A DNA stretch of 64,000 nt from NCBI RefSeq assembly GCF_003391095.1, contig NZ_CP031447.1, positions 372,001 through 436,000 of the forward strand. The letters run 5' to 3'. Made by a program: the position numbers and the translations under genes. Shown in pieces: positions 20,187-37,298 of the stretch. Source of the DNA: Austwickia chelonae. GTDB lineage: Bacteria; Actinomycetota; Actinomycetes; Actinomycetales; Dermatophilaceae. How positions within the stretch are numbered: position 1 is the stretch's first letter; each line of letters begins with the position of its first letter. The notes under the pieces were generated by a model. It searched no databases and was not told where the DNA came from. It was given only the letters and a program-made list of their open reading frames with translations.

Positions 20187-20187
20187 T

Positions 20188-20481: not shown

Positions 20482-20497
20482 GCGAGAACACATAAGC

Positions 20498-21231: not shown

Positions 21232-22137
21232 ATGACCGGGGTCATCCACTGCGAGCGGGTCACGAAGGTCTTCGGCTCGTTCCAGGCCGTTCAGGACCTC
21301 GACCTCGTCGCCGAGCCGGGCGAGGTGATCGGCTACCTCGGCCCGAACGGTGCGGGGAAAAGCACGACCATTCGCATGCTGATGGGTCTGACCAGACCGA
21401 CCGGCGGGACCGTGCACCTACTCGGCCAGAACCCGGCCGAGGTGCCAGCAGTGCGTGCCCAGGTCGGCTATTGCCCAGGTGAGCTGCGTCTCGACGACCG
21501 CCTCACCATCCGCGAGACCCTGGAGACCTGGTCCATGCTCCGGGGCGGGGTCGATCGTGCTCTGATGACCGATCTCATCGAACGGTTCGACATCGACCCC
21601 GGCAAGGTCGTGCACTCGCTCTCCACGGGGAACCGCCGGAAAGTCGGTCTGGTGGGCGCCTTCATGGTGCGCCCCGACGTACTCATCCTCGACGAGCCCA
21701 CGAACGGGCTCGACCCGCTGATGCAGCGGGCCTTCGTCGAGACCCTGGGCGAGGCGGTGTGGGAGGGCGCGACCGTACTGCTCTCGTCCCACGTGCTTTC
21801 CGAGGTGGAACGGCTGGCCACCCGCTTGGTCATCCTCCGCCAGGGAAAGGTCGTGGCCGAGGGGTCCGTCGCCAGTTTTCGTGATCAGGCCCAGCAGATC
21901 GTCGAGAGCGTGGTCGGCCGTGCGCCTGATATCGCGGAGCTGAACTCCTTGGCCGGTGCCAGTGACGTGGAGATCGACGGTGACATGCTGCGCCTCGCCT
22001 GGCGCGGCCCGATGGACGGTCTCATCCAGGTGCTGAGTCGGTGTCAGGTACAGAAAATGCGAATCCATGAGCCGGATCTGGAGCGCTCCTTCATGGACTA
22101 CTACCGCAATGACAGCAACGACGGAGGTGGCAAGTGA
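21232..22137 (+). CDS. ABC transporter ATP-binding protein
   Basis: 301 aa. Walker A GPNGAGKST, signature LSTGNRRKVGLVGAF (unusual Asn-Arg after LSTG), Walker B VLILDEPTNGLDP and switch His in LLSSHVLSEVERLA. C-terminal 80 residues are the extension seen in drug/antibiotic-type exporters. AAAGGAG precedes the ATG. The permease overlaps its stop by GTGA, so both form one exporter unit; position suggests export of, or resistance to, the product of the downstream cluster. Confidence 0.9.
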   Translation: MTGVIHCERVTKVFGSFQAVQDLDLVAEPGEVIGYLGPNGAGKSTTIRMLMGLTRPTGGTVHLLGQNPAEVPAVRAQVGYCPGELRLDDRLTIRETLETWSMLRGGVDRALMTDLIERFDIDPGKVVHSLSTGNRRKVGLVGAFMVRPDVLILDEPTNGLDPLMQRAFVETLGEAVWEGATVLLSSHVLSEVERLATRLVILRQGKVVAEGSVASFRDQAQQIVESVVGRAPDIAELNSLAGASDVEIDGDMLRLAWRGPMDGLIQVLSRCQVQKMRIHEPDLERSFMDYYRNDSNDGGGK

Positions 22138-22937
22138 GCGGTTTCACGCATCTGCTGAAGCGTGCTCTGCAAGCGCAGCAACGGGATCTCCTGCTCTGGG
22201 GAGGCTCGGTGTTACTCCTCGTGGTCAGCGTCCTGGCAGTCTGGCCGCCACTGCGTGACTCCGGCTCCCTGGGCAGCCTCACCGCCGGGATGACACCGGA
22301 AATGGCCCAAGCCATGGGCTTGGACGGGTTCGGAACGGCCACCGGCTACCTCAAAGGAAACCTGTTCGCCGTGATCCTTCCCCTCCTGATCGGGTTCATG
22401 GGTATCTCGGGTATCTCGGGGCTCCTCTCCGGGGACGAACGCAGCGGGCGCCTCGAAATCCTTCTTTCACTTCCCGTCCGGCGCTGGACGGTGGCTCTCT
22501 CCCGCCTGTGCGCTGTCGTTGTCGTGCTGCTGCTGACCAGCCTTCCCATGGCGGCGTCCGTGATTCTCGGCGCGCGTTGGCTGGACATGGATGTCGACAC
22601 CCGAGGAGTCCTGGCGGTGACGACGGCCATCTTCCTGCTGGGCTTCTTCCACGCCGCCCTGGCATTCCTCTGTGCCTGTGCCGGTGCCTCGAAGGGGGCC
22701 GTGAGCGGCACGGCAGGTGGCGTACTGGTCGCGGGATATGTGGTGCAGGCGGTTGTCGCTCTCGTCCCGGACCTGCGGTGGTCGGCGAAGCTCTCCCCCT
22801 GGGAGTGGGCATTGGGCGGGGACCCGCTCGTGAACGGATGGCAGGGGGCCGGGCTGCTGCTGTTGTTGCTGACCGGGGCGGCCTGTCTTGCCGTGGGCTG
22901 TTTGTTCATCGAGCGTCGCGATATCGCCAATGCGTGA
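22134..22937 (+). CDS. ABC-2-type transporter permease
   Basis: 267 aa with six hydrophobic segments, beginning around residues 20-42 (LLLWGGSVLLLVVSVLAVW). LLSGDERSGRLEILLSLPVRRWTVALSR is the typical cytoplasmic coupling loop of ABC-2 exporters. GTG start overlapping the ATPase stop codon. Partner of the preceding ATPase. Confidence 0.88.
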   Translation: MSGFTHLLKRALQAQQRDLLLWGGSVLLLVVSVLAVWPPLRDSGSLGSLTAGMTPEMAQAMGLDGFGTATGYLKGNLFAVILPLLIGFMGISGISGLLSGDERSGRLEILLSLPVRRWTVALSRLCAVVVVLLLTSLPMAASVILGARWLDMDVDTRGVLAVTTAIFLLGFFHAALAFLCACAGASKGAVSGTAGGVLVAGYVVQAVVALVPDLRWSAKLSPWEWALGGDPLVNGWQGAGLLLLLLTGAACLAVGCLFIERRDIANA

Positions 22938-22976
22938 TCCGGCTGGTCGCCGGAAATAAAAACTGACCTATCAGTT
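22938..22976. promoter_or_regulatory. Stop-proximal hairpin and 16-bp palindrome ahead of ketosynthase operon
   Basis: TCCGGC-TGGTC-GCCGGA (22938-22954) directly follows the permease stop. AACTGA-CCTA-TCAGTT (22961-22976) follows in an AT-rich leader about 80 nt before the first ketosynthase start, and looks like a regulator operator. It is the only strong palindrome between exporter and operon. Confidence 0.45.
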
Positions 22977-23058
22977 CTCAATTCCTTCGTTTCTTTATTC
23001 GTCGGCAGTCGAATTGAGTTCATTTCGTGCTGCCTGTGGCAATGGTGAGGATTGTTGT

Positions 23059-24330
23059 ATGGGAAAATTCTTTGAAGAATCTATTGCCATTACCGGTATC
23101 GGGCTTGTCCTGCCAGGGACGTCAAGTGTGGCGGACTTCTGGGAAAATGTGAGTCAGGGAAAGTCGCAGATAGGTGCGCTCACCCGGTTCAATGGCACAG
23201 CAGGTGGGTTGAACGTCCACGCGTCGGCCGAGATCCGGGACTTCGATCATCGCCATGACCTTCCCGATCTCCCTGAGAAACATGCAGCGAAATACAGTCG
23301 CGAAATTCTCATCTCGATGTCTGCGATTTCTTCTGCTCTCCACGATGCCGGCCACCGGGCCCAGACGATCGCCGGGCCACGGCTCTCCATCGTCCAGTCC
23401 TCCTCACGGGGGCCGCTGGAATGGTGGCGAGGAGCCATGTCCGGCGACGGCAGCCACGCTTTCGCCGACCGCGGCGCCATGTTCCGAGGCCTGGCCGGCT
23501 GCCCCGCCTCCCTCAGCGCGGTCCACCTGGGTGCGCAAGGGCTCGTGACCACGCTGTCCAGCGCCTGCGTCGGAGGGCATCATGCCCTCGGCCTGGCCAT
23601 GGACCAGCTTCGTGCCGGACGAGCAGACGTCGTGTTGGCCGGCGGACACGAATTCCCCGTGCTGGCCGAAGTAGCCCACTGCTACACGGCGATGGGCCAG
23701 GGAGTGCTCTCCAGGCAACAGGACGAACCGCATCGGGCAGTCAAGCCGTACCACCGCGACCGCGACGGATTCGCCCTTGGAGAAGGAGCCATCACGCTCT
23801 GTCTCGAACGGGAAAGCGATGCCAGGGCGCGCGGCGCTCGGATCTACGGTCTGCTGCTCGCCCACGTCCCCATGAACGAAGCCAACCACGGTACGAGCAT
23901 GGACCTCGAAGGACATGTCACCGCCGATGTGCTCTCCCGCGCACTCGAATCCTCAGGTCGAGCTGCTGACGAAGTGGGCTTCGTGTGCGGACACGGAACA
24001 GCCACCCGCTACAACGACCTCGCTGAAGTCCGGGCACTGCGCACCCTCTACTCCGGTCGCCTGTCCGGAGCGCTTCCGCCGCACGGCTCCAACAAGGCGA
24101 TCTACGGACACACCTTCGGGATGGCCGGTGTACTCAATGTCACCGCCACAACACTGGCTCTACACCACGGCCTGCTCCCGAAGACCGCCAACCTCGACGT
24201 CGTCGACCCCGAATGCGACATCGACCACCTCGCTGACGGACCTCGGGCGACGAAGGCAGACCTCGCACTGTCGATGTCCTTCGCCTTCGGCAGCCAGACC
24301 TCCGTCATGTCCGTGGGATCGGCCGCATGA
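23059..24330 (+). CDS. Beta-ketoacyl synthase (KAS I/II type), canonical triad
   Basis: 423 aa thiolase-fold condensing enzyme. Nucleophile Cys170 in LSSACVGGHHALG, His312 in CGHGTATRYND, Lys346 and His351 in NKAIYGHTFGMAG: a complete Cys-His-His set with the active-site Lys. It should carry out decarboxylative Claisen condensation on an acyl thioester. Start ATG 23059, with GAGG about 10 nt upstream. First gene of a long run of overlapping genes; the next start overlaps its stop (ATGA). Of three KAS II-like proteins in the operon this is the only one with all catalytic residues. Confidence 0.88.
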   Translation: MGKFFEESIAITGIGLVLPGTSSVADFWENVSQGKSQIGALTRFNGTAGGLNVHASAEIRDFDHRHDLPDLPEKHAAKYSREILISMSAISSALHDAGHRAQTIAGPRLSIVQSSSRGPLEWWRGAMSGDGSHAFADRGAMFRGLAGCPASLSAVHLGAQGLVTTLSSACVGGHHALGLAMDQLRAGRADVVLAGGHEFPVLAEVAHCYTAMGQGVLSRQQDEPHRAVKPYHRDRDGFALGEGAITLCLERESDARARGARIYGLLLAHVPMNEANHGTSMDLEGHVTADVLSRALESSGRAADEVGFVCGHGTATRYNDLAEVRALRTLYSGRLSGALPPHGSNKAIYGHTFGMAGVLNVTATTLALHHGLLPKTANLDVVDPECDIDHLADGPRATKADLALSMSFAFGSQTSVMSVGSAA

Positions 24331-26048
24331 AAATGACACCGGAAAAACGAGACTCGACATTCATCGCCGACGGACCGGACGAACTGGTCAGCGCATTGGT
24401 GCGCCCCGGTGAACATGTCCACCTAGCCGCCACGATGTCCCGCCCCAATGCGCTCCAGCGGTCCCTCGCCCGGGTTTTTCGTGGACAAAGGAATCTGGTG
24501 GTGAGCACACCTGCAGTGCACTCCAGTGCCCACGCCCTCGCGCTCTCCGGATGTTGCCGGAAACTCATCACCGGTTTTCTCGGCGACACCTACCCGACGC
24601 CGCGTCCCAACAGCCTGTACCGAAATGTCCACCAAGGGATCCCCTTCGAGGTGGAGCTCTGGTCACTCCTGACCTACACCCAGCGGCTCATGGCCGGCGC
24701 TCTCGGACAACCGTTCGCCACGACAGGCTCCGACCTCCTCGGCACGAGCCTGGGCGCAGACAAGGAAGAACATCTCACCACCGTCGAGGTCGGCCCCGAA
24801 GGCCACACCGTGACCTTGATGACCCCGCTTCGTCCCGATATCGCGCTCTACCACGGCGTCTGCGCCGACCCAGAGGGCAATATCGCGATCTGCGCCCCCT
24901 ACGGCGAGGGCCCCTGGGCGGCCTACGCGGCGAAGCGAGGTGTGATCGCCTCGGTGGAATACCTCGTCCCTCGTGGGGAACTGCCCGATATCGCCGATCA
25001 CATCCTCATCCCCGCTTCACGCGTCATCGGGCTCTGCGAGGCACGCTACGGGGCCCACCCCAACTCGCTGCGCGCCAAAGGACTCGCCGGCGTCGAAACA
25101 TATCTGGACGACTACGACCACCTACGTCACATCGTCGAGGCCTGCTCAACAGAAGCCGGAGCCCGACGCTGGTTCGACGAATGGGTCCTGGACGGAACAC
25201 ACCAGGAGTACGTGCGCAAACTTCAACAGACCGGAGCCGTCACCCGGATCGCTCTACCAGTCAGAACAACCGAACCACCGCCGAACGATGACACCGTCGA
25301 GATCAGCTCGATTCCTGCGGAACCGACCAAGCAGGAACGACTCGTGATCCTCGGTGCCCGGGCCATCAAAAGACTGGTGCTGGAACGAGGCTATGACACC
25401 GTCCTCGCCGGGATCGGCACCTCACACATCGCGGCCTGGGTCGCCTGCCAGCAGCTACGGGCCGACGGACATCCCGTCGTCTTCGCTGCCGAGCTCGGCC
25501 TCGTGGCCGACGAACCTTCGACGGGCGACGTCTTCCTCTTCAGCCAACGGCACGTCGCCAAGGCACAGATGCTCACCGGCATTCCGGAGATCCTCGGCGG
25601 ACTCGTCGCAGCGAACGACCGATGCCTGGGCGTCCTCTCAGCCGCCGAGGTGGACCCGGAAGGCAATCTCAACACCGTCCTCCTGCCCGACGGGCGGTGG
25701 GTGACCGGCAGCGGAGGAGCCAATGACATCGCGTCGAGCTCCGACTGCGTCGTGATCGCACCCGCCTCACGTCGACGGTACGTCCGCGAACTCGCGCACA
25801 CCACGAGCCCAGGAAAACGAGTGCAAACACTGGTTTCACACGTGGGCACATTCCACCGCAGGGAGGACGGGCGTTTCGCGCTCGCCTCCTGGCTACCCGA
25901 AGACCAGGCGGAGACCCCGGCCGACGCCATGGCCCGCCTCACCAGTTGGGACCCCGAGGACTTGCCGACCCCCTGGGACGAGGAACCCATCTCCGAAACA
26001 GAGCTCGCCTGCGTGCGTGCCATCGATCCGAAAGGGGACTACCGCTGA
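24327..26048 (+). CDS. Fused family I CoA-transferase (alpha-beta)
   Basis: 573 aa containing both halves of a glutaconate/3-oxoacid-type CoA-transferase in one chain: alpha-like domain about residues 15-310 (GEHVHLAATMSRPNALQRSL; GSDLLGTSLG), beta-like domain about 340-540 (YDTVLAGIGTSHIAAWVACQ; SGGANDIASSSDCVVIAP). The likely catalytic Glu is Glu389 in FAAELGLVADEP, in the E-x-G context of this family. It would move CoA between carboxylic acids, making or recycling a CoA thioester for the condensing enzymes around it. Donor and acceptor unknown. Overlaps both neighbours. Confidence 0.8.
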   Translation: MKMTPEKRDSTFIADGPDELVSALVRPGEHVHLAATMSRPNALQRSLARVFRGQRNLVVSTPAVHSSAHALALSGCCRKLITGFLGDTYPTPRPNSLYRNVHQGIPFEVELWSLLTYTQRLMAGALGQPFATTGSDLLGTSLGADKEEHLTTVEVGPEGHTVTLMTPLRPDIALYHGVCADPEGNIAICAPYGEGPWAAYAAKRGVIASVEYLVPRGELPDIADHILIPASRVIGLCEARYGAHPNSLRAKGLAGVETYLDDYDHLRHIVEACSTEAGARRWFDEWVLDGTHQEYVRKLQQTGAVTRIALPVRTTEPPPNDDTVEISSIPAEPTKQERLVILGARAIKRLVLERGYDTVLAGIGTSHIAAWVACQQLRADGHPVVFAAELGLVADEPSTGDVFLFSQRHVAKAQMLTGIPEILGGLVAANDRCLGVLSAAEVDPEGNLNTVLLPDGRWVTGSGGANDIASSSDCVVIAPASRRRYVRELAHTTSPGKRVQTLVSHVGTFHRREDGRFALASWLPEDQAETPADAMARLTSWDPEDLPTPWDEEPISETELACVRAIDPKGDYR

Positions 26049-27061
26049 TGAATCCCGAGACCTTCCACCGCCTGGGGCAAGTGCCGCACCTACCGCCGAC
26101 TCATCTGAGCGGCATCGCGCACTACTTTCCCGGTGCGCCGGTGACCAACGACTACTTCACGAACCTGCCGGATCTCGGGATCGACGAAGCCTGGATCCAG
26201 GAACACACCGGAATCCACAGCCGGCACTGGCCGGACGAGACGGTCGAACGCCCGGTGGAGATGGCCGCACACGCCGTCGAACAGGCCTTGGAACGAGCAC
26301 AGCTCGAACCGACCGATATCGACCTGGTGATCGGTACCACCTCGACCACGCGACCGAGGGTGAACCCCTCCTCCCTGACCAACCGTTACATGGACATCTC
26401 CCTGCCGTTGCAGGCCCAATGCGGCCTCACCCGGGCAGTGTGTTTCGACGTCGCCGCTGTCGCCTGCGCAGGCTTCCTCTACGGGAGCGCGGTGTCGATG
26501 TCCCTCCTGGCCTCTCTGGGCATGCGCAATGCTCTCGTGGTCTGCGCAGAGAATCCGCGCCCGATCCTCAACTTCGGATACCGCTACTCGACGCTCTTCG
26601 GTGCAGGCGCGGCAGCTGCTGTCTGGTCCGCCGGCGACGGCCCCGGGAAGCTCTGCGACGTCGTGCTCCACGCCGACGGAAAGTATTTCGGTGCCTTCGA
26701 CATCGACGACAACGACAAGATGCTCATGAAGGGGAAGACCATCGGCGAGGTCGGCCCGGGACTGCTGGCAGCCGCGGCACAAGAACTCATGGAACGCAAC
26801 GAGCTGACGCCGGACGACATCACCTGGTTCCTTCCCCACCAAGGCAACCTCAACATGATCGACGCCGTCTGCGACCTCGTGCAGATCCCGCGCAGCGTCA
26901 CACTGACCAACATCCAGTCCCGGGGGAACACCTCCAGCGTGAGTATCCCGAGCTGCCTGTCGGAGAATCTCCAATCGGGCCAGGTCAAGCCCGGTGACAC
27001 CGTCCTCACCGTCGGTATCGGCCGTGGACTGAGCTGGGGAGGGATGCTGTTCCGTGCCTGA
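26048..27061 (+). CDS. FabH-like beta-ketoacyl synthase III (first)
   Basis: 337 aa. KAS III triad complete: Cys in VAAVACAGFLYG, His in WFLPHQGNLNMID, Asn in SRGNTSSVSIP. The N-terminal IAHYFPGAPVTNDYF and WIQEHTGIHSRHW (GI-x-R-R equivalent) match FabH. It would start chains from an acyl-CoA. ATG 26048 overlaps the preceding TGA by one base. The frame is open upstream to 25946, but those residues overlap the CoA-transferase. A second FabH-like gene follows, overlapping by 8 nt. Confidence 0.88.
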   Translation: MNPETFHRLGQVPHLPPTHLSGIAHYFPGAPVTNDYFTNLPDLGIDEAWIQEHTGIHSRHWPDETVERPVEMAAHAVEQALERAQLEPTDIDLVIGTTSTTRPRVNPSSLTNRYMDISLPLQAQCGLTRAVCFDVAAVACAGFLYGSAVSMSLLASLGMRNALVVCAENPRPILNFGYRYSTLFGAGAAAAVWSAGDGPGKLCDVVLHADGKYFGAFDIDDNDKMLMKGKTIGEVGPGLLAAAAQELMERNELTPDDITWFLPHQGNLNMIDAVCDLVQIPRSVTLTNIQSRGNTSSVSIPSCLSENLQSGQVKPGDTVLTVGIGRGLSWGGMLFRA

Positions 27062-28034
27062 GCAGCCAAAACCCGACGCGGGGATCTGGTCCCATGCAGG
27101 GATCCAGATCATCGGCTACGGGCACAACTACCCCGCTGAACTCGTCGTCAACGATCCCGGTGAAGCACTCCGTCCTGGATCGGTGGACCAGGCGGTCATC
27201 GGCGGCATCGACGTGCGCTCACGCTATGTCACCGCCGAGAACGAGACCCTCGTCGAACTGGCCGCAGGCGCAGCACAACGAGCCCTGGCCGATGCAGCGA
27301 CGCGGCCTGAGGACGTCGGACTGGTCGTGCTGAGCAACTGGACAGACCGGCAGTTCGTCCCCGAACCCGCACCGGAGCTCGCGATGGTGCTCGGGATGCC
27401 TGGCGCATTCGCCTACAACACGTGCGGTGCCTGCACAGGTTTCATCCACGGCGTGCAACAGGCAGCTGCACTGCTGATGACTGGCGGATACGGTCAGACC
27501 GCGCTCGTGGTCAGCGCCGACCGGTTCTCCCGGCGCGTGAGACCCGGCAGCAAGGGAACCCTCATCGTCGGCGATGCCGCAGGCGCGGCAGTACTGCACA
27601 CCGGAGGTGCCCCAGGAACCGGACTTCTTGACACCGTCATGTTCGCCAGCGGCCTGGACCGAGAAGTCACTACGGTGCGACCCCCGGACGGATACATCCG
27701 CAGCCAACGGCATCTGCTCGAGCTTGCGGTCGCTTCCCACCGGAGGACGGTCAACGTCCTGCTCGCACGCAACGGACTGGCCATGGACGACCTCGACTGG
27801 TTCGTTCCGCATCCCGGCACCGGTGCCTTGCACCGCGCCATGCAGGAAGAACTGTCGGTTCCTTCGCAGAAGTTCGTCACCAACTACGAGGAGCGAGGCA
27901 ACACCGGTAGCGCGTCCATCCCCATCATGCTGTCCGAGATGCGGGCGGACGGGCGGCTGCGCGACGGAGACCTGGTGATGACGCCGACAGTCGGCGCAGG
28001 CTGGTTCTACGGGGGGATGATTTTCCGTGCCTGA
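27054..28034 (+). CDS. FabH-like beta-ketoacyl synthase III (second)
   Basis: 326 aa. Cys in NTCGACTGFIHG, His in WFVPHPGTGALH and Asn in EERGNTGSASIP keep the KAS III triad, but it is clearly diverged from the preceding paralogue (shorter N-terminus, IDVRSRYVTAENETLVELA in place of the usual arginine motif). Both end in the same G-G-M-x-F-R-A sequence. The two may form a heterodimer or act on different acyl-CoAs. GTG start overlapping the previous stop region. Confidence 0.86.
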   Translation: MPEQPKPDAGIWSHAGIQIIGYGHNYPAELVVNDPGEALRPGSVDQAVIGGIDVRSRYVTAENETLVELAAGAAQRALADAATRPEDVGLVVLSNWTDRQFVPEPAPELAMVLGMPGAFAYNTCGACTGFIHGVQQAAALLMTGGYGQTALVVSADRFSRRVRPGSKGTLIVGDAAGAAVLHTGGAPGTGLLDTVMFASGLDREVTTVRPPDGYIRSQRHLLELAVASHRRTVNVLLARNGLAMDDLDWFVPHPGTGALHRAMQEELSVPSQKFVTNYEERGNTGSASIPIMLSEMRADGRLRDGDLVMTPTVGAGWFYGGMIFRA

Positions 28035-28818
28035 CGCACCCTGGGCTTTGGTCACCGGCGCCAGCAGAGGCCTGGGCAGCTCACTCGCCGTCGCACTGGC
28101 TCGTACCGGATACCAGGTCGTGACCTGCGCGCGCTCACAAGAGCGGCTTGAAGAGCAGGCGGAAATAGCACGGGCAGCAGGCCTCACGCTGCATCCTGTC
28201 GTGGCAGATGTGACCGACGAGTCGAGCGTGGACTCGCTGTTCACCGAAGTGGAACGACTGGCCGGACGACTCGACCTCTGCGTGAACAATGCCGGCACGA
28301 ACAACTCCCACCAGCTGGTTCGTGCTACATCCGATCCCGAGCAACTACATCGCTACCCGCTGCAGGACTGGCGGACCACGATCGACCTCTGCCTCACCGG
28401 AACCTTCCTGGTCGGCCGCGCCGCTGCCGCCATGATGGTTCGGCAGAGCAGCGGCGTCATCGTGAACATCTCGTCCGCGGTGCGACATGGCGCTTACGGG
28501 CAATCTGCTTACGCCGCAGCCAAAGCCGGAGTGGAGTCGCTCACGCGTACCTGGTCCTGGGAACTCGGGGAACACGGCGTCCGCGTGGTGGCGATCGCTC
28601 CCGGCGTGCTCGATGGCGAACGACTACGAGAACGCATCGCTGCAAGTGAACGCCACCGGGCCTACATGGCAGCGCTGAAGACACAAACCCCGCTCCAACG
28701 GTGGGCCGAGACGGACGACGTCTGCGACGCAGTCATCTTCGCCGCATCCCATGACTCGGTGACTGGAACAGTTCTGGAGGTTCACTGTGGAGGCATCCCC
28801 CCACGCGTCCGTATCTGA
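28027..28818 (+). CDS. Short-chain dehydrogenase/reductase (FabG-like) 1
   Basis: 263 aa classical SDR. Cofactor motif TGASRGLG at residues 10-17, NNAG, Ser in NISSAV, YxxxK in YAAAKAGVES. Likely NADPH-dependent 3-ketoacyl thioester reductase for the condensation products. Contains an extra loop after NNAG (residues about 85-110). GTG start overlapping the second FabH-like gene by 8 nt. Confidence 0.88.
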   Translation: MPDAPWALVTGASRGLGSSLAVALARTGYQVVTCARSQERLEEQAEIARAAGLTLHPVVADVTDESSVDSLFTEVERLAGRLDLCVNNAGTNNSHQLVRATSDPEQLHRYPLQDWRTTIDLCLTGTFLVGRAAAAMMVRQSSGVIVNISSAVRHGAYGQSAYAAAKAGVESLTRTWSWELGEHGVRVVAIAPGVLDGERLRERIAASERHRAYMAALKTQTPLQRWAETDDVCDAVIFAASHDSVTGTVLEVHCGGIPPRVRI

Positions 28819-29632
28819 CCGGACCCACCGACGCTTCGTCGGCCGGACCGCCCTGGTGAGCGGCGCAAGCAGCGGCATCGGCGCAGAAGTGGCACGAAGC
28901 CTGGCCCGGGAAGGCGCAGCGGTCGCGATCCTGGCCCGGAACGAGCAGGCACTGGCCGCAGTCGCCACACAGATTCAGGACGAAGGCGGCGAAGCCATCG
29001 TCGTCGCCGCCGATCTCCGCTACACGGACGCCGTGAAGGCCGCAGTGCAGGAGGTGAGAGAACGACTAGGCGGGCCGGACCTACTCGTCAACTGTGCCGT
29101 CGACGCCACCGACCAAGTCTTCCTGGAGGACCAGGACGACAAAGACCTGGCCCGCGGCCTGGACATCAACCTCGGGGGAGCATTCCGCCTGTGCCACGCC
29201 GTCGTGCCCGACATGACCCAGCGACAACGGGGCGGGATCGTGCTGGTCTCCTCCGTGGCCGGACTGCGCGGCCTCCCGTCCAACACCGGGTACTGCGCCG
29301 CGAAGCACGGGGTCATCGGGCTCGTGCGAGCCCTCGCCCTGGAAGTCGGACACGTGGGCGTACGCGTCAATGCCGTCTGCCCGGGGCTGGTCGATGCTCC
29401 GGGGACCACCGATGCTCCACGGTACGCCAACGACTTCATGCGCAGCCTCGCGGAACATCACGGCCCGGTCGACCTCACCTGGGAGCGTTACCTGGCCCGG
29501 GCCGTACGCTCGACAGCGCTCCGCAGACTCATCTCCCCGGGAGAAGTCGCGAGCACCATCCGCTTCCTGCTCTCGGACGATTCCGACGGCATCACAGGCC
29601 AAGCGATCGTCATCGACGGAGGCGCCTCATGA
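28787..29632 (+). CDS. Short-chain dehydrogenase/reductase 2
   Basis: 281 aa. SGASSGIG cofactor motif near residue 25, Ser in LVSSVAGL, YxxxK in GYCAAKHGVI, and the C-terminal GQAIVIDGG strand. A 30-residue insertion after PGLVDAPG (residues about 205-240) resembles the substrate loop of hydroxybutyrate-dehydrogenase-like SDRs. In the glycine-Asn region, NCAVDA replaces NNAG. Starts at GTG 28787, overlapping the previous gene by 32 nt; no closer in-frame start is apparent. Confidence 0.85.
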   Translation: MEASPHASVSDRTHRRFVGRTALVSGASSGIGAEVARSLAREGAAVAILARNEQALAAVATQIQDEGGEAIVVAADLRYTDAVKAAVQEVRERLGGPDLLVNCAVDATDQVFLEDQDDKDLARGLDINLGGAFRLCHAVVPDMTQRQRGGIVLVSSVAGLRGLPSNTGYCAAKHGVIGLVRALALEVGHVGVRVNAVCPGLVDAPGTTDAPRYANDFMRSLAEHHGPVDLTWERYLARAVRSTALRRLISPGEVASTIRFLLSDDSDGITGQAIVIDGGAS

Positions 29633-30942
29633 CGCCACCCTCTGCCCTCGACCCGGTGATCACCGGGATGGGCTTCTGCCTTCCCGGCGACAGCGAGACA
29701 CCGACGACAACCATCGACCAGCTCTGGAAGGTCGCCTCGACCGGCACCAGCAGGGTGCGCACCGGCGACTTCTTCCACGGGACAGTGCACGGGGCCGCAG
29801 CGGAAGCCGCCCGGCGATGGCCGACGATCCCCGAACACCATCTGGCTTCCTACCAGGAGGTGCACCACCTCGGTCTGGTATCCCTCCACGAGGCTCTCCA
29901 CGACGCAGGGCTCGACCCCGCCGGTGAGGAAGTCCGCGACTCAGCAGTCCTCACCGCCCGAGCAGGAGTCGACTCGACCTATGACACCTACCGCGCCTGG
30001 CACGACCTGGGAACAACGGCAGACCCGCGGAACATCAAGTCACATTTCGTGCAGCTCCTCCTGGGCGGAACCTGGTCCGACGTCGGACTGATCCAGAGCG
30101 CCATGCTCCGCAGCCGCGGAACGAGCTTTGTCCTCAGCTCCGGGTGCGCCTCGTCCGCGGAGCTCCTCGGGATCGCCGCGGACCTGATCCGCAGCAGACG
30201 AGAGGACCTCGTCGTCGTCACCGGCGTAGACCATTTCAAAGCAGACCGGGTCCTCCACGGAGCCAGACTCGCCGCCAGCGTGGAACAGACGATGCCGGTG
30301 ACGGCCACCCACCATGCCGACCCCCCCGCCGCTCCGCGACACGACCGGCAGATGCGCCCCTACGACGTGCACAGCGACTGCATGAACTACGGCAGCGGCG
30401 CCGCGACCCTCGTCGTGGAGTCCCGGGCACGGGCCGAGCGACGTCCTGCCCGGATACACGGGCGCATCCTCGGCCAATGCACCCGCCGCGGAGGACTGCA
30501 CAGCGCAGTAGCGCTCGCGACAGACGGCTCGGCTCTTGCCGAGGCGGCCCGCACCGTTCTCCGGCGTGCGGGCCTGACGCCTAAGGACATCACGTACGTG
30601 AACGGCGGCGCCGAAGGCGATCCGCTCTTCGCTCGGCTGGAGGCGAATGCTCTCATCGAGCTGATGGGGTCTGCGCCGATGCCGCTCGTCAGCTCTCAGG
30701 AGGCATGTTTCGGACACAGCGGGGCACCCTTGGGCGCACTCGAAGCGGCACTCACGGTCCTCATGATGTCTCGAGGAGAGGTCTGCCCCACGGCGGCCTG
30801 CATCTACCCCGACCCCACGTTGCCCTTCGATCCGATGCCGGGCACATGGACACGACCGCTCGAGATGGACAGAGCACTGAGCTTCAACTACCAGGTCGGT
30901 GGCGTGTACAGCGCGTTGCTTCTCGGGGCTTCCGATGAGTGA
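29629..30942 (+). CDS. Divergent ketosynthase homologue lacking first His (A)
   Basis: 437 aa, KAS I/II fold. Cys173 is kept (LSSGCASSAELLG) and so is the second His363 (CFGHSGAPLGALEA). But the first His block (normally HGTGT) reads NGGAEGD, with Gly327 at the His place, and the active-site Lys five residues before the second His is Glu358. This is not a chain-length factor, which loses the Cys. It may be an acyl-transfer, decarboxylation-deficient or structural partner. ATG 29629 overlaps SDR2 by ATGA; the protein overlaps the next ketosynthase homologue by 8 nt. Confidence 0.8.
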   Translation: MTPPSALDPVITGMGFCLPGDSETPTTTIDQLWKVASTGTSRVRTGDFFHGTVHGAAAEAARRWPTIPEHHLASYQEVHHLGLVSLHEALHDAGLDPAGEEVRDSAVLTARAGVDSTYDTYRAWHDLGTTADPRNIKSHFVQLLLGGTWSDVGLIQSAMLRSRGTSFVLSSGCASSAELLGIAADLIRSRREDLVVVTGVDHFKADRVLHGARLAASVEQTMPVTATHHADPPAAPRHDRQMRPYDVHSDCMNYGSGAATLVVESRARAERRPARIHGRILGQCTRRGGLHSAVALATDGSALAEAARTVLRRAGLTPKDITYVNGGAEGDPLFARLEANALIELMGSAPMPLVSSQEACFGHSGAPLGALEAALTVLMMSRGEVCPTAACIYPDPTLPFDPMPGTWTRPLEMDRALSFNYQVGGVYSALLLGASDE

Positions 30943-32200
30943 CGGCCGGTTCACTTTGCTTGGTGCCGGCGTTCTGTTCCCCGGACCCGGCGGAGGGGCG
31001 TGCACGACATTCTCCGAGGTGATGGCCTGCGTCCGGGCGTCGACGAGTTGCCTCACTCCGTTGTCACCTCACAACGGGCTGGGGAGCACCGTCCTCGGAC
31101 GGATAGATGACCTCGAAGGCGCTGCGGCACTGTCACTGGACCCAGGGGAAGCGAGCCGTTACTCGCGGGCGGCGCTGCTGGGCGCTGCCGCAGTGCGGGA
31201 TGCGCTACGCGAGGCAGGTGTCGACGCCGCGGACACCTCCGGACGGACGATCCTGGTGACCGCGTCGCTGCAGTTCGGGGCGAGCGAGTTGCAGGAGATG
31301 TACGAAACATTCGTGCAGGGTGATGCAGCCGATGTGGGGATGGCCTATTGGCGCCGGGGGACACCGGCTGCGCTGATCGGAGGGATCTCCGCGCTTCTAG
31401 GGCTCAGCTGGCCGACTCTCAATATCGCCGGGAGCTGCAATGTCGGTCTCCGGGCGCTGGAGGTGGGGCTGGCAGTACTCTCCGCCGGGCTGGCGGATCG
31501 GCTGGTCCTCCTCGGTGTCGACAGCTGTGTGGACGACCTCTTCCTCGCCGGGGCGCTGCACCAGGGAAGCAGCGGCTATCAGGCCGCGGTGGCCAGTCTC
31601 GACATCGAGGACGTGCGCCCGCACGACAGCGACCCGCGCGGCAATGCCAGCGGAGAGGGCGCCATCGCCTTGGTCATCGAGGCTGACACTCTGCCCGACC
31701 GGGGACGGCCGTTCCGAATCGACCTTCGCACGGTGCGGAGCTCCGGGCGGTCGACGGTGGCGACAGGGCCCACCGCACCCCTGGCCCAGGCGACCAGTGA
31801 GCTGCTCAGAGACGCCGAGATCGGTCTGGCCGACGTGGCCTTCGTCAACGACTATGCAGACGGGAACGCCTTTGTCGAGGAACATTTCGTGGCTTTTCTC
31901 GACGAACTCAGATCCCTTGAGGAGCACCGGGGGCGGCTGACGCTGGTCAACCAGGAGGGGATCTTCGGCCATGTCGCCGGGCCCGGTGGCCTGCTCCGCC
32001 TCCTCGTGACATTGGAGATGCTGGCCGAGGGAGCCGCCGCGCCGTGCCCGCACGTCCGCGCACCCCACGGGGGTCTCGGCTCGGTGAATCTCGCCGGTGG
32101 ACCGTTGAACGACGCGGCGGGACCGGCCCTGATCGTGAGTTCCGGCGCGGGGGGAGACGCCACTGTCGCGCTCGTCTGGGCCGGGGGAGAAAGACAATGA
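30935..32200 (+). CDS. Divergent ketosynthase homologue lacking first His (B)
   Basis: 421 aa, KAS I/II fold. Cys168 is kept (NIAGSCNVGLRALE) and His349 (IFGHVAGPGG), but the first His is Tyr307 (FVNDYADGN) and the active-site Lys is Glu344. The same two losses occur in the gene just upstream, so the pair probably evolved together and may form a heterodimer resembling the KS-alpha/beta pairs of type II polyketide systems, but with the opposite residue pattern. Start ATG 30935 lies inside the end of the previous gene. Confidence 0.8.
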   Translation: MSDGRFTLLGAGVLFPGPGGGACTTFSEVMACVRASTSCLTPLSPHNGLGSTVLGRIDDLEGAAALSLDPGEASRYSRAALLGAAAVRDALREAGVDAADTSGRTILVTASLQFGASELQEMYETFVQGDAADVGMAYWRRGTPAALIGGISALLGLSWPTLNIAGSCNVGLRALEVGLAVLSAGLADRLVLLGVDSCVDDLFLAGALHQGSSGYQAAVASLDIEDVRPHDSDPRGNASGEGAIALVIEADTLPDRGRPFRIDLRTVRSSGRSTVATGPTAPLAQATSELLRDAEIGLADVAFVNDYADGNAFVEEHFVAFLDELRSLEEHRGRLTLVNQEGIFGHVAGPGGLLRLLVTLEMLAEGAAAPCPHVRAPHGGLGSVNLAGGPLNDAAGPALIVSSGAGGDATVALVWAGGERQ

Positions 32201-33642
32201 AGGGAGAGACGACGATGCAGGTAGCCGTGGAGGGCCCTGACCCTGAACCCGTCTCGTTGGTCCGAAGGGCACTCGATCTCATCGGTCAGCCGGCCGGATC
32301 AGGCGACATGACAGGACAGGTCGATGCCGCATGCCTGGCGGTGGCGGTCAATGCTGCTCTGGGTGCGCCCCGTAGCGCAGCGGATATTGACCGTTCCCGT
32401 TTCGAGGCCCATGCCGCCGAGCTCGTCTCTCGGGGGTCAGGGCGGTTGATCCTGGTCTCCGACATAGGTCCGGGGAGTCGACGAGGGGGCGGTTTCCACG
32501 CCGAAGCAGCTGAGCTGCTCGGGTGGTGGGAGCAGCTGGTGGTCGACGCCGCGCGGCACGGCGTATCGGCGTGCCACATCCAGGTCGGCTACTCGCCGGA
32601 GGCGGGGCACGCTCTGACCGGGATTCAGGCGCAGCACGTCCTGCGCTACCAGCCACTCCGGCGAGGAACCCGAGCCGAGGATCTCGCCTCAGCTTTCGAT
32701 CTCCTGCTCGCTCCCGCCGGTGGATACCTGGTGGGAGAGACCCTGCGGGTCGACGGCGGAGCACATCTCGGTTGTTTCCCCGCGATCCGTGGCGATGGAT
32801 CCCCGGGGCCCAGCCGCGCAGAGGTGCCTGTCACCGGCAGCCCCGGCCTGTTGCAGGGGCAGGTTGCCCTCGTGACCGGAGCGAGCAGCGGGATCGGGCG
32901 GGCGATCTCCTTGGAACTTGCTGCACGGGGAGCCGATGTCGTGCTGGCTGCACGGCGCGTCGACAAACTCGACGAGGTGGCGCACGAGATCGTTTCCGGC
33001 GGTTCGCAGGCGTGGACACTCGAGACCGACCTGAGCGATCCGGCGGCGGCGGCATCACTCGTCGACAGGGCTTGGGCAGCGGCAGGCGGTCCGGTGCATC
33101 GTCTCGCCTGCTCGGCGGGTCAGCTCGGGCTGGCCGAACCAGGTGGTGAAGGCGTTCGGCGAACCACCATGCAGGTGAACTTCTTCTCTTCTGCGACGGT
33201 GACCGAGAACATGGTGACCAGATGGGTGGACCGTGGATTGCCCGGCTCCGCCGTCGCGGTCAGCTCGGTGAGTTCGACTCTGGCTCCCGTCGCCCTGCTG
33301 GAGAACTACGGTCCGAGCAAAGCTGCTCTCAGCCAGCATCATCGGGCCTTGGCGGTCTCGGTGGGACGGTGCGGAATCCGCACCAATACCGTCTGCCCCG
33401 GCATCATCCAGACCGACATGGGCGATGTGGCTGAGGAGATGCACCGCCGTGGCTGGTTGAGCAGGATCCCCCTGGGGCGAGTGGGAACACCGGCAGAGGT
33501 CGCGGCCGTCGTCGGCTACCTCCTGGCTTCAGGATCGGAGATGGTCACGGGCACCGCCCCACGTATCGACGGAGGATTCGGGCTCGGATGGGTGGCCGGT
33601 CTTCAGGACGTGCGTGCGCTGTGTGCGGGGGAGACGTCATGA
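32197..33642 (+). CDS. Tandem SDR fusion: degenerate N-domain plus active C-domain
   Basis: 481 aa. Residues about 1-210 follow an SDR-like fold but lack both the TGxxxGxG cofactor motif and YxxxK; the end of that domain, GGYLVGETLRVDGGAHLG, is a typical SDR C-terminal strand. Residues about 217-481 are a complete SDR: VTGASSGIG from about 226, Ser in VSSVSSTLAP, YxxxK in NYGPSKAALS, CPGIIQTDMG. ATG 32197 has GGGGGAG 7 nt upstream and overlaps the ketosynthase stop (ATGA). The N-domain may be a structural or binding module, as in bifunctional SDR fusions. Confidence 0.82.
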   Translation: MKGETTMQVAVEGPDPEPVSLVRRALDLIGQPAGSGDMTGQVDAACLAVAVNAALGAPRSAADIDRSRFEAHAAELVSRGSGRLILVSDIGPGSRRGGGFHAEAAELLGWWEQLVVDAARHGVSACHIQVGYSPEAGHALTGIQAQHVLRYQPLRRGTRAEDLASAFDLLLAPAGGYLVGETLRVDGGAHLGCFPAIRGDGSPGPSRAEVPVTGSPGLLQGQVALVTGASSGIGRAISLELAARGADVVLAARRVDKLDEVAHEIVSGGSQAWTLETDLSDPAAAASLVDRAWAAAGGPVHRLACSAGQLGLAEPGGEGVRRTTMQVNFFSSATVTENMVTRWVDRGLPGSAVAVSSVSSTLAPVALLENYGPSKAALSQHHRALAVSVGRCGIRTNTVCPGIIQTDMGDVAEEMHRRGWLSRIPLGRVGTPAEVAAVVGYLLASGSEMVTGTAPRIDGGFGLGWVAGLQDVRALCAGETS

Positions 33643-34409
33643 CGCGGCCACGGACTGCCCTGGTACTCGGTGCGTCCAGTGGAGTCGGCGCAGCGGTGGC
33701 GCGGATGCTCGCCGGTTCAGGCCATACCGTCTCGTTGTGCGCACGTCGTGAGCGTGAGCTGAAAGCGATCTGCGATGACATCACCGCCTCAGGCGGGCAC
33801 GCTGTGAAGCTTGCACGGGATCTGTCCGTGCCTGGAGCGGCCGAGGAAGTGGTCCGCTGGACGCAGGACGAGCTGGGAGAGATTGACATCCTGGTCTCCT
33901 GCGCGGGGATGGCCCGGCTGTCTCCACTGCACGAGTACAGGTTCCAGTGGTGGGAGCGGCAGCTGCGCCTGAACAGCCTCGTCAACGTCGAGGCAGCGGC
34001 AGCGGTGCTGCCTTCGATGCGCGCCCGCAGATCGGGCTGGATCATCATCATCGGGTCTGCGGCCGGCCTCTCCGCGGTGCCCGGCACTGGGGGCTACGGG
34101 GTGTCGAAGGCGGCCGCACACCATGTCGCGAAAGTGCTCTGCGCCGAGAACCGCGGCCACGGCATCCATGTCCACGCGCTGTGTCCGGGGTGGGTGCGTA
34201 CCGAGCTCGCTGCCGACCCGCACACACTCGGAGTGCCCGAGGAACTCCTGCTTCAGGCGGAGGACATCGCTGAGGTGGTCAGGTGGCTCGTGGCCCTTCC
34301 TGCGAGGGTGCAGATCGGGCCGGTGATCGAGGTTCAACCACTCGACCCCGCTGCTGATGCCACAGCGGGCATCGCGCGTTTCGTCGGCCACCAGCAGGAA
34401 GGCCCTTGA
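33639..34409 (+). CDS. Short-chain dehydrogenase/reductase 4
   Basis: 256 aa. LGASSGVG near residue 10, SCAG, Ser in IIGSAAGL, YxxxK in GYGVSKAAAHH, CPGWVRTEL. Classical SDR. Start ATG 33639 overlaps the fusion gene's stop (ATGA). It is the fifth SDR domain of the operon, so several keto groups or different chain positions are probably reduced. Confidence 0.87.
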   Translation: MTRPRTALVLGASSGVGAAVARMLAGSGHTVSLCARRERELKAICDDITASGGHAVKLARDLSVPGAAEEVVRWTQDELGEIDILVSCAGMARLSPLHEYRFQWWERQLRLNSLVNVEAAAAVLPSMRARRSGWIIIIGSAAGLSAVPGTGGYGVSKAAAHHVAKVLCAENRGHGIHVHALCPGWVRTELAADPHTLGVPEELLLQAEDIAEVVRWLVALPARVQIGPVIEVQPLDPAADATAGIARFVGHQQEGP

Positions 34410-34410
34410 C

Positions 34411-34491
34411 ATGACGACTTCTTGGACCGGCGGTGACGGTTTCGTCCAGCAGCTGGCCGTACCGGATCGTCAGCGAGGGATTCCTCGATGA
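34411..34491 (+). CDS. 26-codon ORF between SDR and crotonase
   Basis: ATG 34411 is preceded by AGGAAGG at 8 nt and opens 26 codons (MTTSWTGGDGFVQQLAVPDR followed by six more) ending in a TGA that overlaps the next ATG (ATGA). So it has a ribosome site and stop/start coupling like its neighbours. It is too short to be a carrier protein. It may be a real peptide, a leader for coupling, or a gene remnant. Confidence 0.4.
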   Translation: MTTSWTGGDGFVQQLAVPDRQRGIPR

Positions 34492-35327
34492 GACATGTCG
34501 CAGGCCCTCGTGGCGACCTGAACGCTCTGGCGGGGGACGACGACGGTATCCGTGTGTGTCGTGACGGTGCCGTCGGCGTCATCGCCCTTCACCGGGGTGG
34601 GCAGCACAACGCCCTGACAGCTGCCATGGGTCGCCGTCTGCTCGACGCGGTCGTACGGGCGGCGGCAGATCCGTCGGTGCGCTGCCTCCTCCTCGTAGGA
34701 GAAGACGGATCCTTCTGCGCGGGCGATGACCTGCACGGTGTGCAGGCGTGGAACGGCGGTAAACCCGGGGAAGCGCCCTTCGATCCGTTGACCCACGACG
34801 CCTACTACTTGCGGATCTGCGAGTCGCTGATCCAAGCGCCGAAACCGGTCGTGGCTGGTCTGACGGGAGTGACCGCCGGGGCCGGGCTCGATATCGCGTG
34901 CGCTGCCGACTACCGGGTCGCCGGTGAGCAGGCCAGGTTCGCCAGCCGCCTGATCAACGTGGGCCATGTCGGCCATGCCGTGCTGTTGCCACGGATCATC
35001 GGGGTGGGCCGGGCCACGAACTGGTACTTGACCGGGCGCCTGGTGGGTGCGCGGGAAGCCTTCTCCGCAGGGTTCCTGGACGAGGTCGTGCCTGACGACG
35101 AAGTTCATACGAGGGCCACGCGGCTTGCCCGTGAGCTGGCCTGCGCACCGACGGCATCCATCGGATTGTTCAAAGATCTGCGGGAACGGGCATGGGGTCA
35201 GCCTGTTCAGGCGGGCCTTCGCCTGCAGGACGCCTGTCATCTCGTGACCCACGATCAGGTGAGGGACGCCTCCCGGGGCATTGAGGCTGCGGCCGACGGG
35301 CACCGAGCGGACTTTCAGGGCGACTGA
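34488..35327 (+). CDS. Crotonase-fold protein with altered catalytic residues
   Basis: 279 aa enoyl-CoA hydratase/isomerase superfamily. Oxyanion-hole segments are kept (SFCAGDDLHG and GVTAGAGLDIACAADYR). The first catalytic Glu of hydratases is Asp in AGAGLDIA, and the second is absent (ARFASRLINVG instead of a P-E motif), so a reaction other than simple hydration is possible. Last gene of the plus-strand operon; its 3' end overlaps a convergent gene by up to 158 bp. Confidence 0.8.
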   Translation: MRHVAGPRGDLNALAGDDDGIRVCRDGAVGVIALHRGGQHNALTAAMGRRLLDAVVRAAADPSVRCLLLVGEDGSFCAGDDLHGVQAWNGGKPGEAPFDPLTHDAYYLRICESLIQAPKPVVAGLTGVTAGAGLDIACAADYRVAGEQARFASRLINVGHVGHAVLLPRIIGVGRATNWYLTGRLVGAREAFSAGFLDEVVPDDEVHTRATRLARELACAPTASIGLFKDLRERAWGQPVQAGLRLQDACHLVTHDQVRDASRGIEAAADGHRADFQGD

Positions 35328-36279
35328 GGCGGAGAGCGTTGCCGGACAACCAGTCCGAGGCCACTTCGGGCGCGATGGGTAGCGAGGCCAGCTCGGCGGC
35401 GAGGACGTCGACGGGTTGCGGGTTGACCCATCTGCTGGTGCCGAAGAGGATCTTCTTCCGCAGCGGGCCGTGAGCAGCACGGATCAGCGCTCGCCACTCC
35501 GGTTCAGCACCGATGACACGGGGGCGGTGCGAGGAGAACTCCAGGTGGACGTTGGCATGTCTGCTGGCGACGAGTGTGCTTTCGAGGACTTGGGGCCAGC
35601 CGGCATGGCCGATGACGATGGTGAGTCGCGGGTGCCGGCGTGCGAGGTCGTCGATGTCACGCCAGCTGTCTGCTCCTTGCCGGTAGCGGGAGGCGAAGTG
35701 GTGGCCGGAGTGGATCCACACGGGGAGGCCTGCTTCAGCGAGCGCGCCGAAAAGGTGGGTGTTCCGGGGGTCGGTGACCGGGACGCCGTCGAGGAAAGGG
35801 ATGACATTGCTGCCTCGCGCGCCGTGGGCGACCGAGTCCTCCAGGGTCTGCATGGCGCGGCTGGGATCGTTCAACGGGAGGCCGACCCAGATGTCGGTCC
35901 CCGGTTCATGTGCGAGCGCGTGCAGCATCGACTCGTTCACGGTCGCTCCGGAGCCGGTTTCTTCGGCGGAGCCCATGAGGAACTCCAGGACGACTCCGCG
36001 TTGCCGGCGCTCCTCAAGCGTGCGGCGGGTGTCGATCCGGCGGTCGACGGGGAGGAGGTAATCGACTGCGGCTTGTGGGCTTGTCGCCAGCGCTGCCTGG
36101 TACTTCTGCAGGTCACCGTCGAAGAGCCGACAGAAAGCGGCTCCGAACACTGACAGGTATTCGGGTGCTGGCTCCGCGAAGCGGAGCAGGTAGGCGCGCC
36201 AGCCGTCAGTGTCGAGGACGAGTGAGCAGGCGTCGGCGATGGACGGACGAGGACTTTCCGGTGGGGAGGGGGAGTGCAT
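35170..36279 (-). CDS. Amidohydrolase-2-like protein without usual metal ligands
   Basis: 369 aa from ATG 36279. A TIM-barrel of the amidohydrolase-2/ACMSD-like kind is indicated by AEAGLPVWIHSGHHF, RLTIVIGHAGWPQVLES and KKILFGTSRWVNPQP. The N-terminal D-x-H-x-H metal motif is not found, and the usual Asp of FGSD/FGTD is Ser here, so it may be metal-free or inactive. The last ~45 residues after SGNALRLS are Arg/Pro-rich and antisense to the crotonase end. It starts 3 nt after the stop of the upstream crotonase, same strand. Confidence 0.65.
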   Translation of the reverse strand: MHSPSPPESPRPSIADACSLVLDTDGWRAYLLRFAEPAPEYLSVFGAAFCRLFDGDLQKYQAALATSPQAAVDYLLPVDRRIDTRRTLEERRQRGVVLEFLMGSAEETGSGATVNESMLHALAHEPGTDIWVGLPLNDPSRAMQTLEDSVAHGARGSNVIPFLDGVPVTDPRNTHLFGALAEAGLPVWIHSGHHFASRYRQGADSWRDIDDLARRHPRLTIVIGHAGWPQVLESTLVASRHANVHLEFSSHRPRVIGAEPEWRALIRAAHGPLRKKILFGTSRWVNPQPVDVLAAELASLPIAPEVASDWLSGNALRLSRPESPLGARRPQPQCPGRRPSPDRGSRDDRRPAGEGPPEQADPMPVPADL

Positions 36280-36281
36280 GG

Positions 36282-37040
36282 TCAGCGGCCCTGCCAGCGA
36301 GGCCGGCGGTGTTCGACGAAGGCAGTAGCGCCTTCGCGGGCGTCGGTGCTGTTGAGGACGGGGGAGAACCAGGTGTCCTGATGCGCCCACATGTCGGGGC
36401 TGGGGGTGTTCTGCTGACGTAGGACTTCGAGGGTCGCCCGGAGGGCCAATGGTGCCATTGTCGAGATCAGACGGCCCAGCTCCTGCGCCGTCGACAGGGC
36501 CTGCCCTGGTTCGACGAGGCGGGTGAACAGCCCGGTTCCGGCCAGATCTGCTGCGGTGTACATGCGTCCGGTGAGCAGCATCTCGGCGGCGATCGGGTGG
36601 GGAAGGCGGCGTCCCAGCCGCAAGGCACCACCTTGTGTGGCGACCAGCCCGCGGCGGACTTCCGGCAGTGCGAAGCGGGCATCTGTGGCGGCGATCAGGA
36701 GATCAGCGGTGAGCGCGATCTCGAAGCCGCCGCCGACAGCGGCGCCTTCGACTGCTGCCAGGAGGGGAAGGCGAGGTTCGTGCCGGGTGATGCCGCAGAG
36801 TCCTCGTCCTGGGATCGAGGGGCGTTCTCCTCGCGCGAAGGCGTTGAGGTCCATCCCGGCGCAGAATGCACGTCCTGCACCGGTGACCACGATCGCGTGG
36901 ATGTCATCGAGCTGTTCGGCTTCGTCGATGGCTTCGGAGACCTCTGTGGAGAGGGTGCTGTCGATGGCATTGCGGACCTCGGGACGATTGAACGTGATGG
37001 TCCGGACGCCTTGAGCGTCGTCGACGAGGATGGACTGCAT
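36282..37040 (-). CDS. Enoyl-CoA hydratase/isomerase (canonical)
   Basis: 252 aa crotonase. Oxyanion segments RAFCAGMDLNAF and GAAVGGGFEIALTADLL; both catalytic Glu positions are present (FEIAL and ALPEVRRG). It can hydrate enoyl-CoA or act as an isomerase. C-terminal EGATAFVEHRRPRWQGR is typical. Forms a two-gene minus-strand unit with the amidohydrolase-like protein and is divergent from the alpha/beta hydrolase. Confidence 0.88.
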   Translation of the reverse strand: MQSILVDDAQGVRTITFNRPEVRNAIDSTLSTEVSEAIDEAEQLDDIHAIVVTGAGRAFCAGMDLNAFARGERPSIPGRGLCGITRHEPRLPLLAAVEGAAVGGGFEIALTADLLIAATDARFALPEVRRGLVATQGGALRLGRRLPHPIAAEMLLTGRMYTAADLAGTGLFTRLVEPGQALSTAQELGRLISTMAPLALRATLEVLRQQNTPSPDMWAHQDTWFSPVLNSTDAREGATAFVEHRRPRWQGR

Positions 37041-37298
37041 GCGAACTCCGCTGCCGGGTAAACGTTGAAGAAGCTTACCTCTCCATATTGTTCGTTCATT
37101 CTGGTGTCAGAAAGGCCTGACAAGCAGCGGATTTGTGGCCTTTCGGACGACGGGGTCGTTGCGGCACCCTGCGTCTTGAGTGGTGACGCAGGGTGTTCCT
37201 CTGCGGTTTATGCCAATCCTCGGGCCTGCCCTCGTCCCACCCATTACGGTGAAAGTGCCGTGGCTCAGTGGATTCGGCTGGATGCCAGGAGGGCTCCC
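37041..37298. promoter_or_regulatory. Divergent promoter region with conserved leader block
   Basis: Contains the promoters of the crotonase and hydrolase genes. The 3' part (37247-37288) resembles 19624-19665 on the same strand, suggesting a shared leader element or related remnant. A GTGGCTCAGTGGATTCG stretch resembles a tRNA D-arm, but no tRNA folds. Confidence 0.35.

Follow-up and report, generated by a model that had tools for sequence, protein, structure and literature searches.

The analysed stretch, hereafter the window, is a 64-kb segment of the Austwickia chelonae genome (contig NZ_CP031447.1, positions 372,001 to 436,000) and carries, between window positions 23059 and 35327, an operon of eleven enzyme genes that all point in the same direction. 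As called from open reading frames (ORFs), they encode, in order, a β-ketoacyl-acyl carrier protein synthase (KAS)-type ketosynthase (KS1), a fused family I coenzyme A (CoA) transferase, two KAS III-like synthases (FabH1 and FabH2), two ketoreductases of the short-chain dehydrogenase/reductase (SDR) family (SDR1 and SDR2), two further KAS-type ketosynthases (KS2 and KS3), a double SDR, SDR5 and a crotonase (Table 1). Nine of the ten junctions overlap and the last one, between SDR5 and the crotonase, is a 78-bp gap; all reading frames are intact, and Pfam supports the identity of all eleven genes. A preliminary description of this DNA had the row and its domains right on both counts, ORF calls and Pfam. 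It was also correct about the ABC exporter genes preceding KS1 and about one degenerate SDR domain, namely, the N-terminal half of the double SDR, which lacks the GxxxGxG and YxxxK motifs and matches the SDR model at 22 bits, under the cut-off, whereas the C-terminal half has both motifs.

Relatives were collected by scanning genome contigs for KS2, which gave 46 loci, 29 treated as operon-type and 17 as other; statements on relatives refer to the DNA fetched for each. The eleven genes are conserved elsewhere, the best copy per locus being 36–71% identical. The exact gene order of the window recurs in 11 of 12 loci (L020–L031) from Streptomyces and one Catenulispora, which we call non-type after the nonactin cluster; L028 is truncated after the first eight genes, all of which agree. 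The exporter stands before KS1 in nine of the 12, and best-copy identities between the window and these loci range from 32 to 71%. According to PMC10817512 (here and below, cited articles are represented by the portions available), the non cluster has five ketosynthases, four ketoreductases and no acyl carrier protein (ACP). The window, like these nonactin/macrotetrolide (non, din) clusters, encodes five discrete ketosynthases (KS1, KS2 and KS3, which are KAS I/II-like, plus FabH1 and FabH2) and four SDR ketoreductase ORFs. The same article equates the S. globisporus proteins Dyn4, Dyn5, Dyn9 and Dyn10 with NonS, NonL, NonJ and NonK. Locus L025 reads crotonase, ligase, hydrolase, SDR5, double SDR, KS3, KS2, and with three ORFs between ligase and KS3 its spacing fits the Dyn numbering. 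By position, KS3 and KS2 are the NonJ/NonK pair, which keeps the acyl Cys. In addition, two species represented in this group, S. werraensis and S. globisporus, are called nonactic-acid producers in titles cited by PMC11051294, although the strains differ.

The claim that the gene combination matches no known cluster thus does not hold, because the same gene set is that of the published nonactin cluster. The idea of a novel condensing pathway that needs no carrier and has no kinship to known clusters, to which one might appeal since no NCBIfam match reached its cut-off among the matches listed for ten scanned proteins, is barely credible because nonactin- and pamamycin-type clusters are syntenic with the operon. 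Aryl polyene, type II aromatic polyketide synthase (PKS) and fatty-acid operons, already set aside earlier, are rejected here as well, as neither an ACP nor a dehydratase was found and the synteny points elsewhere. The curated family matched by the three KAS-type ketosynthases, cispentacin AmcF, was discarded too, the match being far under the cut-off.

Phylogenetic analysis of five concatenated proteins from 25 loci and the window places the window with the Streptomyces non-type loci at 100% ultrafast bootstrap, and FastTree agrees. With the root placed among the remaining loci, as midpoint rooting does, Catenulispora falls outside the group of the window and Streptomyces. The next relatives are five pam-type loci (L052, L053, L056, L058 and L060), whose order and divergent ketosynthase-FabH operon match the published pamamycin order (pamA,B,D,E,O,K,J,M,N,L,H; pamF,G,C; pamX,Y; PMC10644645), with gene letters assigned to loci by order only; in L053 amidohydrolase, aminotransferase and methyltransferase follow, as in that order. 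That the window itself is a pamamycin-type macrodiolide cluster is highly improbable. KS1, CoA-transferase, FabH-like ketosynthases, SDR1 and KS2 are indeed common to both, as are the double SDR, SDR5 and the amidohydrolase where the DNA reaches them, and the second crotonase of the window shares 45% identity with its counterparts in two pam-type loci, versus 32–38% with the non-type ones. However, the window has KS3 and SDR2, neither of which was found in any of the five pam-type loci as fetched, and the tree groups it with the non-type loci. Unlike the window, pam-type loci have the divergent operon (with an ACP seen in L060 and L056), NonL (L053 and L058) and both aminotransferase and methyltransferase (L053). 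No ACP is encoded in the window, and neither a PamC-like ACP nor an aminotransferase or methyltransferase (PamX and PamY in the pamamycin cluster; PMC10644645, PMC8176718) was found among the insert genes scanned.

The cluster is bounded by ends of homology to a sister genome, G001. In blastn comparison, 16202–19593 aligned at 90% and 38162–42130 at 84%, with 59 bp between the two in G001. Since homology ends at 19593 and resumes at 38162, the cluster is an insertion of 18,568 bp (~18.6 kb). The genes asd and cobD are 20.5 kb apart here; in the three further genomes of the genus that were searched, the distance is 1.96, 2.57 and 7.8 kb. A comparison of 400 and 350 bp of sequence spanning the two ends revealed no exact direct or inverted repeats of at least 10 bp, and none of the genes scanned was recognisable as an integrase or transposase. 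A KS3 search of 57 other related genomes returned no close relative (six had weak matches of at most 35 bits), and the CoA-transferase was matched in one of 393 other genomes of the class (E ≤ 1e−20). This rarity fits horizontal acquisition. Taken together, we consider it very probable that the window holds a horizontally acquired, ACP-less member of the non-iterative type II PKSs of the nonactin type, with pamamycin clusters as next relatives. Because NonL is missing, it is not classed as a strict nonactin cluster and is hence called a variant.

To read the ketosynthase active sites, we used FabF structures as reference. KS1 has the full Cys-His-Lys-His set. KS2 keeps C173 and H363 in 37 of 37 alignment rows, but has Gly (31) or Ala (6) at the position of the first His and, in all rows, Glu at that of the Lys; KS3 keeps C168 and H346 in 19 of 19, with Tyr (14) or Phe (5) at the first His position and again Glu for Lys in all. 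Many rows in these counts are near-identical Streptomyces proteins and are not independent. The two residues missing from KS2 and KS3 serve decarboxylation in ordinary ketosynthases, and their loss makes it unlikely that KS2 and KS3 form C-C bonds by decarboxylative condensation. C-O bond formation is reported for NonJ and NonK (PMC10006239), and the shared signature, in which Cys and the second His remain, the first His is gone and Lys has become Glu, would fit such an ester-forming role. FabH1 has an intact Cys-His-Asn triad (34/34 rows). In FabH2, Cys and His are kept in all 42 rows, and the Asn position holds Asn in 34, Gln in six and His in two. E389 of the CoA-transferase is kept in 24 of 24 rows; in 37 of 39 pairwise local alignments with host and S. 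globisporus beta subunits it coincides with the Glu of their SENG motif, which we take to be the catalytic residue. A comparison of the CoA-transferase with the host beta subunits by hhalign gave just one match, which was short and weak and did not include this Glu. The AlphaFold model of the enzyme was poor (mean pLDDT 62, pTM 0.46) and was not used.

The KS2 signature also occurs outside the operon. Stand-alone KS2-like ketosynthases (L035–L039, L041–L043, L046–L048, L054, L055, L057, L062 and L065) show Cys, Gly, Glu and His at the four positions in all 16 usable rows, drawn from 17 loci. In 15 of these a large ORF lies nearby, and the two that were scanned encode KS-AT-DH-ER-KR-ACP modular PKSs. 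Judged from the residues and neighbours, these proteins are possibly ester-forming ketosynthases coupled to type I PKSs.

Two genes set the window apart from its nearest relatives. All 11 non-type loci that reach the region have a CocE/NonD hydrolase and an AMP-forming ligase between SDR5 and the crotonase (in L025 the hydrolase matches TIGR00976, CocE/NonD, at 638 bits and the ligase was recognised by Pfam). In the window, tblastn gave no match for NonL at 1e−15 and none for the CocE/NonD hydrolase; the best NonL match in the whole genome (36% over 300 of 480 aa) reads as a generic ligase. As both genes are present in Catenulispora and in all ten Streptomyces non-type loci reaching the region, the simplest reading is that they were lost in the lineage of the window. 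One may ask whether this loss is degradation, and the cluster a decayed or non-functional remnant, all the more so as the NonS-like crotonase sits on a long branch. We regard decay as distinctly unlikely, since the operon frames are intact and the tested catalytic residues are kept. The variant differs further in that its second crotonase lies on the right and on the minus strand, whereas a distant one is on the left in 11 of the 12 non-type loci, and in its host genome of only 3.63 Mb.

The operon is ACP-free. A whole-genome search with PF00550 gave ten matches, none in the window, the nearest being ~1.02 Mb away in linear coordinates, or ~0.54 Mb if the chromosome is circular. Neither PF00698 acyltransferases nor hot-dog domains were found in the genes scanned, which lie after the first 10 kb of the window; a lipid-type acyltransferase (PF01553, 14482–15231) lies outside the insertion. 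The earlier statement that these three functions were not found is borne out. For related genomes, where an ACP had been named as a point to look for, the picture is split: the ACP profile had no match in the 12 nearest non-type loci or in pam-type L052, L053 and L058, whereas L060 encodes an ACP in its divergent operon (PF00550, 56 bits) and L056 also has a profile match. The suggestion that the pathway uses CoA thioesters is probably right: nonactin-type relatives lack an ACP (PMC10817512), succinyl- and malonyl-CoA are the starting materials (PMC4979870), and 3-oxoadipyl-CoA occurs in the pamamycin pathway (PMC10731712). Alternatively, the ACP could be encoded elsewhere, either as the host fatty-acid AcpP or as a stand-alone ACP near nonribosomal peptide synthetase genes, and the chain would then not be CoA-bound throughout. 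The genome does carry an AcpP-like ORF and a small free-standing PP-binding ORF, and the pamamycin ACP, PamC, is described as important for the large pamamycin derivatives (PMC10644645). This alternative is nevertheless rather unlikely, given that the nonactin cluster is described without an ACP, that the profile matched none of the 12 nearest loci and that the conserved CoA-transferase points to CoA esters.

The gene set suggests the following route. FabH1, FabH2 and KS1 would each catalyse a single C-C coupling of CoA thioesters (succinyl-, malonyl- or methylmalonyl-CoA). The fused CoA-transferase would shift CoA to the free carboxylate of the succinate unit and so permit extension from that end too; 3-oxoadipate CoA-transferase also belongs to the family I enzymes. 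The SDRs would reduce ketones, and the NonS-like crotonase would close the tetrahydrofuran ring by oxa-Michael addition. KS2 and KS3 may then link the hydroxy-acyl units as esters, giving an oligomer or macrocycle for removal by the ABC exporter. Nonactin is built from succinyl-CoA and malonyl-CoA via 4,6-dioxo thioesters (PMC4979870), and 3-oxoadipyl-CoA is one intermediate reported for pamamycin (PMC10731712). Succinate ends up inside the chain, so both of its carboxyls have to be activated in turn, a step that suits a family I CoA-transferase; this enzyme probably activates the succinate-derived carboxylate, with the chain growing from both ends. Given that NonL is absent, the monomers probably stay CoA-bound from the first step to the last. 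The predicted product is a macrotetrolide-like ionophore. As a tentative extension, which we hold possible but doubtful, the cluster may be a macrotetrolide-type assembly line that works wholly on CoA, with neither an ACP nor a free-acid/ligase stage, in which the CoA-transferase flips the activated end of a diacid to allow growth both ways and two ketosynthases without the first His weld the units into a new ionophore in an actinobacterium with a small genome.

Several observations weigh against the nonactin-type assignment or the CoA-bound route, in addition to the dependence among alignment rows noted above. Gene order, gene set and species, rather than alignment to the S. griseus non or S. 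alboniger pam clusters, are the grounds for the identification. The absent ligase and hydrolase are both present in every non-type locus that reaches the region. The NonS-like crotonase falls in the clade of non-type crotonases with 96/83 support, but it is diverged (46–53% identity, end branch 1.03) and its placement was flagged unsure. As for the CoA-transferase, the portions of the literature examined contain no role for it in a nonactin-type pathway. It was detected in 25 of the 29 operon-type loci, two others (L040 and L051) being cut by a contig end on that side; in the rearranged loci L049 and L050 the fetched DNA yielded neither the CoA-transferase nor KS1, an observation that speaks against the CoA-transferase being indispensable in those relatives. 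Finally, the pamamycin ACP is put at the initial assembly step (PMC8176718).

More distant relatives show other arrangements. L019, the sole other match in the class, has all eleven core enzymes, the exporter and the second crotonase, and gave no match for the amidohydrolase or the alpha/beta hydrolase. L032 (a Streptosporangiaceae metagenome-assembled genome), L033 (Phytoactinopolyspora limicola), L034 (Saccharopolyspora indica) and L061 (Propionibacterium acidifaciens) share KS1, the CoA-transferase, FabH1, FabH2, SDR1, SDR2, KS2, the double SDR, SDR5 and the crotonase with the window in a different gene order, with an extra FabH2 in L033 and L061. No match for NonL or NonD was found in the DNA fetched for these four, which spans about 10 kb on either side, nor for KS3 in that of L061. 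The latter (strain DSM 21887) is a divergent, rearranged version of the operon with best matches of 35–50%. Extra double-SDR paralogues stand beside the operon in L032 (one, 18103–19548) and L061 (two, 11260–12645 and 15985–17409).

The insertion holds further genes that go beyond the preliminary description: the amidohydrolase, the second crotonase and the alpha/beta hydrolase on the right, and a regulator on the left. The amidohydrolase has near-full-length matches in ten loci (36–50%) and partial ones at the ends of nine non-type loci. Its frame overlaps the 3′ end of the NonS-like crotonase convergently by 158 bp (35170–35327), and its last ~50 residues fall outside the Pfam match. The second crotonase is 42–52% identical to copies beside L033, L044, L051, L053, L058 and L063. 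The alpha/beta hydrolase is 36–40% identical to the hydrolase that follows the NonS-like gene in nine of the 12 non-type loci, presumably NonR. Outside the insertion, two adjacent subtilase-family proteases amid cobalamin genes (45656–46993 and 47031–48368; 88% identical over 418 aa) represent a tandem duplication.

Table 1. Features of the inserted cluster, in window coordinates
Feature	Position	Strand	Basis
Inserted segment, taken as the whole cluster	19594–38161	.	blastn versus sister genome G001
Small ORF, predicted membrane protein (hydrophobic sequence)	19797–20186	+	No Pfam match
Winged-helix regulator, real start probably downstream	20032–20481	+	PF13601
ABC exporter ATPase	21232–22137	+	PF00005; directly before KS1 in 9/12 non-type loci, 52–56%
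ABC-2 permease	22134–22937	+	PF12679; 42–45% in 9/12 non-type loci
KS1, complete C-H-K-H KAS-type ketosynthase	23059–24330	+	C170, H312, K346, H351 in 25/25 rows
Fused family I CoA-transferase	24327–26048	+	PF01144; top PDB matches are glutaconate CoA-transferase subunits A and B
FabH1 (KAS III-like)	26048–27061	+	PF08541/PF08545
FabH2 (KAS III-like)	27054–28034	+	PF08541/PF08545
SDR1 ketoreductase	28027–28818	+	PF00106
SDR2 ketoreductase	28787–29632	+	PF13561/PF00106
KS2, NonK-like by position	29629–30942	+	Residue signature
KS3, NonJ-like by position	30935–32200	+	Residue signature
Double SDR, degenerate SDR half fused to SDR with intact motifs	32197–33642	+	Motifs, Pfam
SDR5 ketoreductase	33639–34409	+	PF00106; same place in 11/12 non-type loci, 46–52%
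Crotonase, NonS-like	34488–35327	+	PF00378; groups with crotonases of 11 complete non-type loci
Amidohydrolase, PamH-like by position	35170–36279	-	PF04909
Second crotonase	36282–37040	-	PF00378
Alpha/beta hydrolase, possible resistance esterase, real start probably downstream	37065–38090	+	PF12697

These results remove a supposed new class and assign the operon to an established family. Polyketide assembly without a carrier protein has been described before for the nonactin type, and the copy in the window is a variant of it without two genes that its closest relatives have. As a natural nonactin-type cluster that lacks NonL, it raises the question of whether the ligase is needed when the monomers are already CoA esters. 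If the conserved CoA-transferase activates the other carboxylate of succinate, as seems likely, this would account for the extension of an internal four-carbon unit at both of its ends. The combination of a kept Cys, a lost first His and a Lys changed to Glu may mark ester-forming ketosynthases in sequence databases. The predicted pathway adds a probable source of macrotetrolide-like compounds outside Streptomyces.

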